64,000 nucleotides of DNA from Mangrovimonas sp. ST2L15 (GTDB taxonomy: Bacteria > Bacteroidota > Bacteroidia > Flavobacteriales > Flavobacteriaceae), in assembly GCF_001280515.1 (NCBI RefSeq), contig NZ_LBIQ01000018.1:62001-126000 (forward strand), in the 5' to 3' direction. The position numbers and the translations under genes are program-made. Position 1 is the first letter of the stretch; each line of letters starts with the position of its first letter. Under the pieces are notes generated by a model. That model searched no databases, was not told the origin of the DNA, and saw only the letters and a program-made list of their open reading frames with translations. Shown piece after piece: positions 20,193 through 23,460 of the stretch.

Positions 20193-20339
20193 CGTTATGA
20201 CATACTAATCAAAGCTTTAAACTGAAAAATTGTCTTAAAATATAGTCGAAAAACTGACATTTTGGTATTGGTATTTTTTTTGTGTGGTGTTATTTGAATT
20301 TAATCTTTAAACATTATGTATAACACAAATAAAATCATT

Positions 20340-20816
20340 ATGAGTAATTTGATTCCAACAAAAAGAAACGGTTTAAGAACCTCTCAGAGAGAGCAAGGAA
20401 CCTTACCAAGTTTATCTTCTTGGATTGATGACATTTTCAACAGAGACTTTGGATCAGATTTCTTAGCCAATTTCAACACAGGCATGACTTTACCTTCTGT
20501 AAACATTAAGGAAAATAAAGATGCCTATGTGGTAGAAATGGCAGTACCTGGATTCAATAAATCTGATTTTGAAGTGAATGTGGACAACGAATTATTAACC
20601 ATTTCCGCTGAAACTAAAACAGAAAAAAATGAAGAAGAAGAAAACTATACCAGACGTGAATTTGGTTATTCTTCTTTTAAAAGATCTTTCACTTTACCAG
20701 ATTCTGCAGATGCTGAAAAAATCAATGCAGAATATGTGGATGGACTTCTTAAAGTTCAAATTGCGAAACGCGAAGAGGCCAAACGCAAACCCGCTAAAAA
20801 AATTGAAATTTCTTAA
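20340..20816 (+). CDS. Hsp20 / alpha-crystallin small heat-shock protein
   Basis: A 158-residue ATP-independent holdase chaperone. The alpha-crystallin domain spans about 45-150, with PSVNIKENKDAYVVEMAVPG at its start and the classic A-x-x-x-x-G-L-L motif as AEYVDGLLKVQI. The end, KKIEIS, provides the IxI/V anchor typical of the family. The longest frame starts at 20316, but the ATG at 20340 gives the usual MSNLIPTKRNG start. It is a single-gene unit followed by a strong terminator. Confidence 0.95.
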   Translation: MSNLIPTKRNGLRTSQREQGTLPSLSSWIDDIFNRDFGSDFLANFNTGMTLPSVNIKENKDAYVVEMAVPGFNKSDFEVNVDNELLTISAETKTEKNEEEENYTRREFGYSSFKRSFTLPDSADAEKINAEYVDGLLKVQIAKREEAKRKPAKKIEIS

Positions 20817-20877: not shown

Positions 20878-21297
20878 ATGCGATTTTCCCTTTATGTCCT
20901 TTTAGGATGTTTTTTTCTTTTTGCATGTAACCCTTCTAATAAAAAGGAGGAGAAAGAATTTATTAAGTTCTGTGTTACGGCAACTGCCTATAATTCTTTA
21001 GAGTATCAAACTTCACCCAATCCACATATAACTGCTTTTGGTGATAGCTTAATCCCCGGAAAAAAATACATTGCTGTTTCTAGAGATTTATTAAAATTTG
21101 GTCTTAATCACAACACTCCAGTACAAATTGAAGGCTTGGAGGGTATTTATTTGGTAAAGGATAAAATGCACTACAGAAAACGGAACCAAATAGATATTTA
21201 TATGGGCACCGATGTGAAAGCGGCTTTGAAATGGGGGAGGCGTAAGGTTAATATTTCATATCCATGGGTTAAGGATTCTGTAGCCATCTTAAATTAA
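20878..21297 (+). CDS. 3D-domain lipoprotein
   Basis: A 139-residue exported lipoprotein. The signal peptide ends in the lipobox LLGCFFLFAC (Cys17). The mature part has the 3D (Asp-Asp-Asp) double-psi beta-barrel fold seen in MltA and YabE/YuiC-type cell wall enzymes: VTATAYNSLEYQT, AVSRDLLKFGLNHNTPVQIEGL, and the end signature QIDIYMGTDVKAALKWGRR with the acidic residues. The family is tied to peptidoglycan cleavage. It starts 10 bp after the Hsp20 terminator, so it must have its own promoter within or just after that hairpin, or be reached by read-through. Confidence 0.82.
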   Translation: MRFSLYVLLGCFFLFACNPSNKKEEKEFIKFCVTATAYNSLEYQTSPNPHITAFGDSLIPGKKYIAVSRDLLKFGLNHNTPVQIEGLEGIYLVKDKMHYRKRNQIDIYMGTDVKAALKWGRRKVNISYPWVKDSVAILN

Positions 21298-21302
21298 AAG
21301 GA

Positions 21303-21863
21303 TTATTTAGATATTTCAGCTTCAGAAACTACGAAAGGATAGGCTTCTTTAGCTAACGCGATATCCTGATTACTTAATATTTCTGGTGATTTCTTCAAAA
21401 TATTACGTACAAAATTCTCCCTGAGCTCTAAATAGGCTTTGGTTAATTCATCCTGTACTGCCACGTAAAATTGATATGATGTTTCTCGGTCATTTTTTAA
21501 TGAAATCACAGCTTTATTGGGATTGTCTGAAGATGAAACAGATTGAATACCTTGGCAATAATTACAACTCCCATCACCATTGTTATCTACAAAGAGCTTG
21601 ATTTTGTTTTTTATTTCAGAAATGGAAACCAATTCGTCATTGACCATTAATTGATTTTGGCTGTTAATTGAGATTCTCAAGATATTTCGCTCATTTATAT
21701 CAGATGAACAATTCACTCCGGGGGGACAATCTCTGGGTAATTTTCTGCTAATACCTGCGTCATTACTCATGGTAGTAGTCACCAGAAAAAAGATGAGTAA
21801 TAAAAAGGCAATGTCTGCCATGGACCCTGCATTTACTTCTGTAGATTTTCTTGTACGTCTCAT
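21303..21863 (-). CDS. ExbD/TolR-family biopolymer transport protein
   Basis: A 186-residue inner-membrane protein. It has a short cytoplasmic start (MRRTRKSTEVNAGSMADIAF), one transmembrane helix (about 18-35) containing the proton-path Asp17, and a periplasmic domain. A small insert around 45-95 carries Cys pairs (CPPGVNCS and CNYC) that could form disulfides. ExbD works with ExbB to energise TonB-type outer-membrane transport. The partner exbB and other exbD copies are not in this window, so this is an orphan ExbD, which is common in Bacteroidota. It is convergent with the 3D lipoprotein, 5 bp apart. Confidence 0.88.
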   Translation of the reverse strand: MRRTRKSTEVNAGSMADIAFLLLIFFLVTTTMSNDAGISRKLPRDCPPGVNCSSDINERNILRISINSQNQLMVNDELVSISEIKNKIKLFVDNNGDGSCNYCQGIQSVSSSDNPNKAVISLKNDRETSYQFYVAVQDELTKAYLELRENFVRNILKKSPEILSNQDIALAKEAYPFVVSEAEISK

Positions 21864-21917: not shown

Positions 21918-21941
21918 AAAAGTCGGCAATTGCCGACTTTT
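21918..21941 (-). terminator. Perfect palindromic terminator of the small-peptide unit
   Basis: AAAAGTCGGCAA (21918-21929) is followed directly by its exact reverse complement, giving a 24-bp palindrome with a GTCGGC/GCCGAC core. On the minus strand a T run follows. It lies 21 bp after the stop of the 45-residue gene, and it separates the small-peptide unit from exbD, which starts at 21863. Confidence 0.85.
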
Positions 21942-21962
21942 ATACAAACTAACTAATTCAAA

Positions 21963-22100
21963 TTAATGTGCTAACCTATTAATTCCTGTCCATAAAGTTT
22001 CATGATCACTATCCCACTTGTGGTAGTTTCTCCACTTGTCTTTAGATAGCTCCTTCATTCTAAAAAAGGAATCTCTTGATGTTTTAATAATAGCTTTCAT
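21963..22100 (-). CDS. 45-residue basic protein at the end of the small-peptide unit
   Basis: An ATG at 22098-22100 opens 45 codons to a TAA at 21963. The peptide is hydrophilic and rich in Lys, Trp and His: MKAIIKTSRDSFFRMKEL at the start, then KDKWRNYHKWDSDHE. It has no signal peptide or membrane helix. The same ATCAATCAAAAAA leader that precedes each of the three 28-residue peptides occurs just upstream, so it seems to belong to the same transcript. A terminator follows 21 bp downstream. I do not recognise the family. Confidence 0.55.
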   Translation of the reverse strand: MKAIIKTSRDSFFRMKELSKDKWRNYHKWDSDHETLWTGINRLAH

Positions 22101-22170
22101 GATACTTATTTTTTTGATTGATGATTGATGTTGTTTTTGATTGATTTTTTTTCAGCAGTTGGTATGCCAA

Positions 22171-22257
22171 CTATCTGTAGCGTCTTTTACAATTCCAATT
22201 GTAACCTTTTCTGTCACTAAAAGAATTTGAAATTTGATTATTGTCTAAAGTTCTCAT
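22171..22257 (-). CDS. 28-residue peptide, tandem copy 3
   Basis: This is the most divergent of three tandem 28-codon genes. It keeps the N-terminal MRTLDNNQISN and the C-terminal YNWN-x-KRRYR, but has Cys in place of Ser (YNWNCKRRYR) and six other changes in the middle. Compared with copy 2, changes in the two conserved ends are almost all synonymous (AAC/AAT, TCG/TCA, CGT/CGC), so the protein sequence seems to be under selection. A small hairpin (AGTTGG/CCAACT, 22157-22172) overlaps its stop codon. Function unknown. Confidence 0.6.
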   Translation of the reverse strand: MRTLDNNQISNSFSDRKGYNWNCKRRYR

Positions 22258-22302
22258 GATGATGTTTTTTGATTGATGATTGATTGTCTAAGTTCTTACA
22301 GT

Positions 22303-22389
22303 TTATCTGTAACGTCTTTTACTGTTCCAATTGTAACTTTTTGTGTTACCTAATGTGTTCGAAATTTGATTGTTGTCTAAAGTTCTCAT
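22303..22389 (-). CDS. 28-residue peptide, tandem copy 2
   Basis: A 28-codon gene nearly identical to copy 1: the same MRTLDNNQISNTLG start and YNWNSKRRYR end. Four codons differ from copy 1 synonymously (CAG/CAA, TCA/TCG, ACT/ACA, AGC/AGT) and two change the residue (Ile to Asn, Phe to Tyr). The peptide is basic and hydrophilic, with no signal peptide, no double-glycine leader and no membrane helix. The spacer to copy 3 is almost the same as the spacer from copy 1. Function unknown. Confidence 0.62.
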   Translation of the reverse strand: MRTLDNNQISNTLGNTKSYNWNSKRRYR

Positions 22390-22435
22390 GACTATGTTTT
22401 TTTGATTGATGAATGATTGTCTAAGTTCTTACAGT

Positions 22436-22522
22436 TTATCTGTAACGTCTTTTGCTGTTCCAATTAAAACTTTTAGTAATACCTAATGTGTTTGAAATCT
22501 GATTGTTGTCTAAAGTTCTCAT
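22436..22522 (-). CDS. 28-residue peptide, tandem copy 1 (promoter-proximal)
   Basis: The first of three tandem genes, from an ATG at 22520-22522 to a TAA at 22436. It starts MRTLDNNQISNTLG and ends FNWNSKRRYR, with a cluster of five positive charges at the C-terminus. The A-rich stretch CAATCAATCAAAAAAT precedes the ATG, as in the other copies, and may serve as the translation signal in place of a Shine-Dalgarno sequence. Start-to-start distances in the array are 133 and 132 bp. I know of no described family with this sequence. Confidence 0.62.
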   Translation of the reverse strand: MRTLDNNQISNTLGITKSFNWNSKRRYR

Positions 22523-22743
22523 GATAATTATTTTTTGATTGATTGTTTATTAGATAGACGAGGAAAAAAAAGATTTGTTACAGTACTGTGCATTACAAAG
22601 TAGTGATTTAACAAATTTTAACATTTTATTACGTAAGTTTACAATCCTTATATAGGCAATAAATACATAAAATTTCATTAAAAAGTTGTTTGGTTATATT
22701 ATAGGTACGATTTTTGAACTTTCCGTTGGGATAACAATAAACA

Positions 22744-23460
22744 ATGAAACACCTCTTTCTACTTTTATTCAGCCTTGTGTCCATTTCCATATATTCTCAA
22801 ATAGATGGATCGGAAACTAATGCTACGGTTATTCCTGCTGAAGAAAATGCCAATGGGCAAGAAAATAAGGTTATTGAAAATAAACCCATTGAGAATAAAG
22901 GTCTTTTAAATTCCAAAGTTGGTATTAATGGATTATCTGTTCCTGAGCAGAATACAAATGCTGACTTTAACACCAAAAAGGAGTTTTCCATGTTGGGAGG
23001 TGAGAAGTTTGGAGATCCTGGAGAGCTATATAAAGGAAAGGTTGACCAACATTTAAAAAATGTAAGGCAGCAGTATGATGAAGAACGTTTCTTTTCGCGT
23101 GTGGAGCGTGGTGGTTCCAAAACAGATCAATTTTTAGGTGAATTCCGAACCAAAGCCAAAAGTGTCAATGTAGTTTATCGCGACCATGCTGATCCTGACG
23201 GCGATAGAGTGAGGGTTGTAATAAATGGTGAAGTTGTTAAATATGATGTTACTTTAACTACTTCTTTCTCAGGTTTTATCTATAATTTGGAAGATGGCGT
23301 CAATCAAATTGACTTTATCGCTCTTAATATGGGTGAAGCAGGTCCTAATACTGCCGAGTTGGTAGTTATGGATGAAGAAGGCAATATTATTGCATCAAGT
23401 AGCTGGAATTTAGCAACAGGAGTCAAAGCTAGCATTTTTATTATTAGAGAGCCTTTTTAA
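22744..23460 (+). CDS. Exported protein of unknown function with a C-terminal beta-sandwich
   Basis: A 238-residue protein with a signal peptide (about 1-19, ending IYS-Q). A low-complexity Asn/Glu/Lys linker (about 25-55) and a charged segment follow. The C-terminal domain (about 145-235) has the pattern of an Ig-like beta-sandwich: VVYRDHADPDGDRVRVVING, NLEDGVNQIDFIALNMGEAG and AELVVMDEEG. The Asp-rich DHADPDGD loop may bind calcium, which is inference. It has no sorting domain or lipobox and is likely periplasmic. It is divergent from the small-peptide unit and convergent (4-bp overlap) with the pseudouridine synthase gene. Confidence 0.65.
   Translation: MKHLFLLLFSLVSISIYSQIDGSETNATVIPAEENANGQENKVIENKPIENKGLLNSKVGINGLSVPEQNTNADFNTKKEFSMLGGEKFGDPGELYKGKVDQHLKNVRQQYDEERFFSRVERGGSKTDQFLGEFRTKAKSVNVVYRDHADPDGDRVRVVINGEVVKYDVTLTTSFSGFIYNLEDGVNQIDFIALNMGEAGPNTAELVVMDEEGNIIASSSWNLATGVKASIFIIREPF

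Follow-up and report, generated by a model that had tools for sequence, protein, structure and literature searches.

A tandem array of four microprotein genes, three of them paralogues of 28 codons, lies on the minus strand of the DNA analysed here, a stretch of 64,000 nucleotides (nt) from Mangrovimonas sp. ST2L15 (contig NZ_LBIQ01000018.1, positions 62,001 to 126,000; hereafter the window). The array belongs to a family of microprotein genes spread over the Flavobacteriaceae, and its promoter appears to be read by an extracytoplasmic function (ECF) sigma factor of the GFO_1088/PG0214 family. Support is strong for the family and the regulon but not for the molecular role. The best overall explanation, to which we give an even chance, is a sigma-driven tandem operon whose products would be cytosolic, basic stress peptides that bind RNA or the ribosome.

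The first three genes, all of type A, occupy positions 22436-22522, 22303-22389 and 22171-22257 and encode 28 amino acids (aa) each (MRTLDNNQISNTLGITKSFNWNSKRRYR, MRTLDNNQISNTLGNTKSYNWNSKRRYR and MRTLDNNQISNSFSDRKGYNWNCKRRYR, respectively). The fourth (21963-22100) encodes 45 aa with the C-terminus LWTGINRLAH. An earlier note, drawn from the letters of this DNA alone, had described four frames at these coordinates on the minus strand, with start-to-start distances of 133 and 132 bp between the 28-codon frames, and both observations were reproduced. The perfect 24-bp palindromic terminator that it reported is present at 21918-21941 (minus strand); it is followed by a T-rich tail and is the sole terminator-like site between 21850 and 22760, where 0.1 would be expected. 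Two features go beyond that description: many arrays close with a 43-45-residue gene that has a similar C-terminus, and the array of the window is preceded by an ECF-type promoter with an upstream block that reaches to 22622. On the minus strand, this region comprises the block GTTAAAATTTGTTAAA with two TTAAA units (22607-22622), a TACTTTGT box (22595-22602) and the promoter proper (22557-22587, core 22557-22582), composed of a -35 region AGTACTGTAACA, an N15 spacer and CGTC as the -10 element. With one promoter, one terminator and relatives in the same gene order, the four frames are best read as a single stand-alone operon. No repeat of the operon was found elsewhere in the genome, which holds only the three type-A copies and one exact promoter.

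The 28-residue peptide is widespread and its reading frame is maintained. A search with copy 1 (E ≤ 0.1) finds relatives in 126 of 397 Flavobacteriaceae genomes, which represent 87 of 237 genera, with up to nine per genome, and among the matches listed the type-A frames contain no internal stop. The search across the family that had been proposed to check the gene thus recovers the same 28-codon frame far beyond chance. The 45-residue gene, searched alone, matched in 20 of the 397 genomes at E ≤ 0.1, and only two besides its own genome fell below 1e-5; most of the 20 matches are weak and many are probably due to chance, and the gene is less conserved than the 28-residue type. At least two classed type-A genes are present in 64 of the 108 arrays with type A, a count that includes some arrays truncated at the edge of the fetched stretch, and adjacent type-A starts lie 114-201 nt apart. 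Type-A copies share 80% aa identity within arrays (81 pairs) versus 58% between arrays, which fits recurrent duplication or conversion.

Our recount of codon differences agrees with the earlier one: copies 1 and 2 differ at four synonymous and two replacement codons, and copies 2 and 3 at five synonymous and seven replacement codons, six of the latter at codons 12-18 and the seventh at the Ser/Cys codon 23. Ratios of nonsynonymous to synonymous change (dN/dS) were calculated by the Nei-Gojobori method and pooled, with identical pairs left out of the type-A pool. In the window the ratio is 0.05 for copies 1-2, 0.18 for copies 2-3 and 0.10 for copies 1-3. The differing pairs among the 81 within-array type-A pairs give 0.21, comparisons between genomes at 60-90% nucleotide identity about 0.13-0.26, type-B arrays 0.185 (86 pairs) and type-C genes 0.06-0.30 (pairs of ≥ 55% nucleotide identity); below these identities the ratio loses its meaning through saturation and misalignment and climbs to about 1 in some bins. 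The claim that selection acts on the peptide and not only on the DNA is therefore borne out by ratios of 0.05-0.3 and mostly synonymous changes, and the ratios that the earlier note had asked for on all copies are well under 1 in the window, within arrays and between genomes at 60-90% nucleotide identity. That the product is instead an RNA, such as a small RNA or a sponge with repeats, is hardly credible. Its attractions are the repeats in tandem and the compact unit of the window, closed by a terminator of its own, but synonymous changes outnumber replacements about three- to twentyfold per site, the frames are uninterrupted among the matches listed, start signals are conserved, and Rfam returned only three sub-threshold matches, all covering the terminator palindrome.

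A promoter of one form precedes the first gene of most arrays. Its consensus, taken over 161 non-redundant promoters out of 173 sites, is GTTAAAATTTGTTAAAWTAGTACTTTGTTATRCATAGTACTGTAACAAAA-N10-GTCGTCTATTAAGTATAA; the sites were chosen by the string AGTACTGTAAC-N16-CGTC, hence those columns are fixed by choice. The upstream block is kept across the 161 promoters, and within the TACTTTGT box T and A reach 99% and C 85%. By its sequence, TGTAACA-N15-CGTC is shaped like an ECF-sigma promoter. In 120 family genomes, AGTACTGTAAC-N(16-20)-CGTC gave 61 matches in 52 genomes versus 2 for the reversed control, and the spacer was exactly 16 in 60 of the 61. Eighteen of these promoter-positive genomes have no type-A match. 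When type-A loci were fetched by their peptide, the core promoter lay within 500 nt before the type-A open reading frame (ORF) in 26 of 29, with AGTAC in front in 25. The string AGTACTGTAACA-N15-CGTC was not found in 206 genomes from the order's other families, in 220 non-Flavobacteriaceae genomes of the phylum sample (a few genomes are in both samples) or in any of the 22 genomes of one large genus of the family itself (g127, by our guess Flavobacterium). A scan of public genomes found the promoter in at least 117 stretches, and the 80 titles listed name Winogradskyella, Algibacter, Maribacter, Arenibacter, Aequorivita, Aquimarina, Eudoraea, Gramella and other Flavobacteriia, as well as two metagenome-assembled genomes labelled only Bacteroidetes or Bacteroidia. 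The TACTTTGT box also fits the SM5 box TAnnTTGY of Flavobacterium psychrophilum, as given in the available text of PMC9723704, so that two overlapping promoters are possible. A frame beginning MHSTVT precedes several arrays; it was discounted as an upstream ORF because it is a translation of the promoter DNA itself (AATGCAYAGTACTGTAAC).

What follows this promoter is nearly always a microprotein gene. Leaving out the genome of the window, 124 of 143 sites fetched by the promoter are followed by classed micro-ORFs of types A to E and 10 more by unclassed micro-ORFs recognised by eye (e.g. in Gramella, locus L138), so microproteins stand behind 134 of the 143; most have 27-48 codons and they fall into at least five sequence types. 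The remainder comprises six sites with an acidic secreted protein, one unclear case (L148) and two sites lacking the upstream block (L084 and L089), which are probably chance matches. Over all sources, 151 of 170 distinct sites are followed by classed ORFs, with 186 genes of type A, 102 of B, 37 of C, 11 of D and 5 of E. The types differ in length and N-terminus. Type B, found for example in Maribacter, Arenibacter and Eudoraea, has 36-39 aa and the pattern TES[RK]...FFSxF[KR]xSKR[VA][RQ]WxxxRN[YF]. In all 37 arrays with a classed type-C gene, that gene is the last; the 45-residue gene of the window aligns with type C and is placed there by alignment and position, the type-C pattern itself missing it. 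A motif W-x(2,3)-[KR]-x-[YFWH] near the C-terminus occurs in 172 of 173 distinct type-A peptides, 84 of 89 type-B, 30 of 37 type-C, 9 of 11 type-D and 5 of 5 type-E (shuffled peptides: 5.2, 5.8, 1.7, 1.1 and 0.2, respectively), counts that are descriptive, as motif and class rules were derived from the same peptides and the rules include the W and, in most types, a portion of the motif. Under a stricter rule, 40 of 150 relatives have a terminator-like site no more than 200 nt past their last classed ORF, versus 1 of 150 shuffled sequences.

Some sites carry other products. Loci L060, L078, L099, L191 and L229 have a gene for an acidic exported protein (134-188 aa) under the same promoter, and a similar protein stands behind a core-type promoter at L300; the two that were translated contain repeats with the pattern EIEEE-DL-FDT-YLP-FN and gave no Pfam match that passed the cut-off. 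The Gramella-like loci L138, L193, L214 and L233 have other micro-ORFs of 31-36 aa, several with RRY- or KRRY-like tails, and three of these loci also carry 44-aa ORFs, several with WYSRRRY-like tails. These Gramella-like ORFs suggest more microprotein types than the five classed.

The peptides matched no family in the libraries searched. As the earlier note had said of the 28-residue paralogues, the ORFs of the window (here all four) are without Pfam or NCBIfam match, and a set of one further type-A peptide and one or two peptides each of types B to E gave a single sub-threshold match to these libraries (E 0.25). None of 20 type-A members matched PHROGs or PADLOC. Against the PDB, the type-A profile had no match and type B only two (E 0.19 and 0.27). 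A mobile-element origin was considered and rejected: one type-A peptide had no plasmid or phage match, and the type-A alignment found nothing in viral contigs. A literature search by five peptide strings, the promoter string and topic found no description of such an operon, most subscription journals lying outside the search; the strings returned one unrelated paper. The arrays fall under a known kind of system, the sigma-controlled small-protein operon.

The candidate sigma factor emerges from the other places at which the core promoter stands. In the genome of the window, TGTAACA-N(14-16)-CGTC has eight matches versus six for the reversed control. All six N15 sites, that of the array included, lie 27-97 nt before a correctly oriented ORF (in one case starting with TTG), the two N16 sites are not promoter-like, and one N15 site precedes an ECF sigma gene. 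Twelve further genomes hold 113 matches to the N15 string versus 13 controls, and in all twelve a sigma gene of the same BLAST cluster stands behind a core promoter, which makes 13 of 13 with the window's own genome. The protein of that genome scores 244.7 bits against NCBIfam NF058625, the GFO_1088 family (cut-off 130), and by this score it is an NF058625 equivalog. Of 120 family genomes, 104 have a match to it (E ≤ 1e-30); the 30 best loci include 29 readable in frame, and TGTAAC-N16-CGTC lies upstream in 27 of these. The sigma gene is present in 51 of 52 promoter-positive versus 53 of 68 promoter-negative genomes (Fisher p 0.0009), an association to which reduced genomes among the promoter-negatives add; the lone promoter-positive genome lacking it (G079) is an 81%-complete assembly. 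As the core promoter is common to the arrays and the sigma gene, a sigma factor of the GFO_1088/PG0214 family is the likely and self-regulated driver, and we regard it as strongly inferred that it reads the array promoter and appears to drive its own gene.

Across the 13 genomes, 80 of 107 distinct core-promoter places have an ORF of at least 60 aa starting within 260 nt, a count that takes in such ORFs and not the shorter microprotein genes and may include some chance ORFs. Recurrent targets are the ECF sigma gene itself, an ABC ATPase, a DUF456 protein, a DUF4870 protein, an ankyrin protein, an M61 peptidase and others. In 5 of the 13 genomes (loci L244, L275, L302, L319 and L321), a small exported protein with ankyrin repeats stands behind the core promoter.

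Two described systems resemble this regulon. According to the available text of PMC9723704, the SM6 promoters of F. psychrophilum are of ECF type, have a CGT box in the -10 region, are induced at low nutrient levels, and include an ECF sigma/anti-sigma pair and an ABC ATPase among their targets. The CGT box and the ECF sigma and ABC ATPase targets recur at the sites found here, and the SM6 motif is inferred to be the core motif of the arrays, a comparison made on features other than the SM6 -35 sequence; the selected SM6 targets described in that text, however, include no tandem microprotein operon. The second system is that of the family itself, whose presumed member in Porphyromonas gingivalis, PGN_0319 (SigCH), we take to be the probable orthologue of the GFO_1088/PG0214 sigma factor. 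SigCH is reported to regulate cdhR and hmuYR and to have a role in hemin use (PMC5607195, available text), where no microprotein operon is mentioned for it, and the array promoter was not found outside the Flavobacteriaceae in the samples searched. A core promoter common to the arrays and an apparently self-regulated sigma gene would also agree with peptides that regulate transcription by binding RNA polymerase, the sigma factor or an anti-sigma factor as feedback on the regulon, and short basic-aromatic peptides suit protein grooves or nucleic acid. We consider this improbable, as the sigma gene persists in 53 of the 68 genomes that lack the exact promoter and a feedback peptide would need no arrays of up to five copies.

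The genes carry conserved start signals. Ribosomes of Flavobacterium johnsoniae favour A at -3, -6, -12 and -13 (PMC6847099, available text). The 182 type-A leaders have A at -3 in 98%, at -6 in 68% and at -11 to -13 in 90-94%; the 98 type-B leaders have 87%, 59% and 96-98%, respectively, and copy 2 of the window has G at -3. The mean net charge is +5.9 for type A, +6.4 for B, +6.2 for C, about +6 for E and +3.8 for D, so the description of the peptides as basic and hydrophilic stands at about +6 in A, B, C and E. The longest run of AVILMFWCG residues is 5. By inspection there is no transmembrane segment, and no signal or double-glycine leader either, as the earlier note had it. Cysteine is missing from 177 of 186 type-A peptides and mostly from type B, and occurs in 17 of 37 type-C peptides. 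Both termini of the peptides are constrained, with no sign of a cleaved leader.

These properties bear on where the peptides might act. An amphipathic helix was tried for types A and B and rejected, these being no more amphipathic than their shuffles; type C gives a weak signal (mean z 1.12). The missing signal in A and B argues for a nucleic-acid or protein partner over a membrane. The main rival to an RNA or ribosome partner has the peptides acting at the envelope, on the inner membrane face or a membrane protein, as part of an envelope-stress response. It draws on several other core-promoter targets of membrane or envelope type (ABC ATPases, a MacB-like permease, DUF456, DUF4870 and an M61 peptidase lipoprotein), on the weakly amphipathic type C and on the fact that basic-aromatic peptides often bind anionic lipid surfaces. 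With neither signal nor transmembrane segment seen, hydrophobic runs of at most 5 and shuffle-like amphipathicity in A and B, we rate it as possible and on the whole unlikely.

Export fares worse. Tandem, near-identical, positively charged peptides with a variable middle could be exported signals or antimicrobials, uses that the earlier note had offered as speculation and that now look very unlikely. Beside the missing leaders and cleavage signs and the scarcity of cysteine in type A, no export or maturation gene was recognised travelling with the arrays among the largest neighbour clusters, which were only partly annotated, and the commonest neighbours differ between type-A and type-B loci. 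Tandem small ORFs are also reminiscent of type I toxin-antitoxin loci. The Escherichia coli type I toxins Ldr and Ibs are, like the arrays, encoded by tandem near-identical very short ORFs, but they are hydrophobic membrane peptides paired with antisense RNA; judged by the peptides, hydrophilic products with a charge of about +6 (+3.8 in D), hydrophobic runs of no more than 5 and no PADLOC match make toxins of that kind highly improbable here.

A model for the action of the microproteins may be Sra and RMF of E. coli, small basic ribosome proteins of stationary phase encoded by single genes. Like them, the array products would be small, basic, cytosolic and stress-controlled, and they might likewise bind the ribosome; the tandem arrangement sets the arrays apart from the single genes. 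The charge of the peptides and their ECF-type promoter are those of small basic proteins under stress-type control, with the stress response itself presumed.

Under the preferred explanation, a stand-alone operon of four microprotein genes would be read by the GFO_1088/PG0214-family sigma factor, making the peptides regulon members beside ABC exporters, an M61 peptidase and small membrane proteins. The A residues at -3 and -11 to -13 suggest efficient translation, and the repeated genes would raise the peptide dose. The products would be hydrophilic, cytosolic peptides of about +6 whose aromatic/arginine C-terminus (W...KRRY) hardly varies. With the sigma factor active, they might bind in stoichiometric amounts to RNA, to the ribosome or to some other abundant acidic partner, which is the least certain step, and so dampen the activity of that machinery or protect it during envelope or nutrient stress. 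Any exact partner named from such sequence features is more apt to be wrong than right, and a membrane-surface or RNA-polymerase target is possible. A bolder version, which we put forward tentatively and with more doubt than conviction, takes the arrays as a lineage-specific tandem microprotein superfamily with interchangeable N-terminal parts (A to E and further types) and a shared C-terminal W-x-x-(x)-[KR]-x-[YF], which would serve one ECF sigma factor of the Flavobacteriaceae as its main effector and be made in bulk as a stoichiometric ribosome- or RNA-binding stress or hibernation factor.

Several observations weigh against the preferred explanation. The sigma assignment rests on a shared core motif, and in the genome of the window, at eight matches versus six controls, single matches prove little. 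The member of the sigma cluster in genome G174 is divergent, and 2 of the 29 readable sigma genes lack the exact motif. The upstream block of the microprotein promoters was not seen before the sigma gene or other targets, which requires a further regulator or a second promoter; the sigma gene in 53 of 68 genomes without the exact promoter indicates that the arrays are an optional part of its regulon. The core is absent from 3 of the 29 peptide-fetched type-A loci (L023 and L032 are off by a base or so, L025 has none), and among the 120 genomes 9 of 43 type-A-positive ones lack the exact promoter string, which the other 34 have. A terminator was found by the stricter rule in only 40 of 150 arrays, and the common C-terminal motif was defined on the very peptides in which it was counted. 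The six promoter copies that drive an acidic secreted protein are not easily matched to a ribosome role. AlphaFold2 with alignments gives only low-confidence helices (mean predicted local distance difference test score 66.7 for type B and 65.8 for the 45-residue protein of the window).

The surroundings of the arrays appear to reflect descent. In the window, an ExbD-like gene (21303-21863, minus strand) lies directly after the terminator, and a divergent gene (22744-23460, plus strand) encodes an apparently exported protein of 238 aa without Pfam or NCBIfam match, relatives of which lie near the array in 42 of 69 type-A loci. A small protein with a weak sub-threshold 3D-domain match (20878-21297, plus strand) adjoins an HSP20 gene (20316-20816). 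ExbD relatives, the commonest same-strand downstream genes, lie near 27 of the 69 type-A loci and none of the 29 type-B loci. A functional link to ExbD was rejected: ExbD or the divergent secreted gene is kept in 47 of 69 type-A and 0 of 29 type-B loci, and this is read as inherited gene order, not shared function. A leader peptide or attenuator was likewise rejected, since the array of the window has its own terminator and ExbD follows in only those 27 type-A loci and no type-B locus. Some neighbours, recognised by eye, are common to both types: a cold-shock-domain-like protein (cluster L182_u1) near 17 of 115 array loci (8 A, 7 B), a helicase-like gene near 27 A and 3 B loci, and a pseudouridine-synthase-like gene near 8 A and 3 B loci. 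These are hints that some arrays of A and B sit at the same ancestral place.

The Flavobacteriaceae are major marine polysaccharide degraders, and about a third of the sampled genomes of this family carry microprotein genes that fall below the routine size limit of annotation. The distinctive promoter and a named candidate sigma factor make expression, regulation and partner directly testable. If the peptides act on ribosomes or RNA polymerase, they would shut down or protect that machinery under stress in a way that, to our knowledge, has not been described in model organisms.

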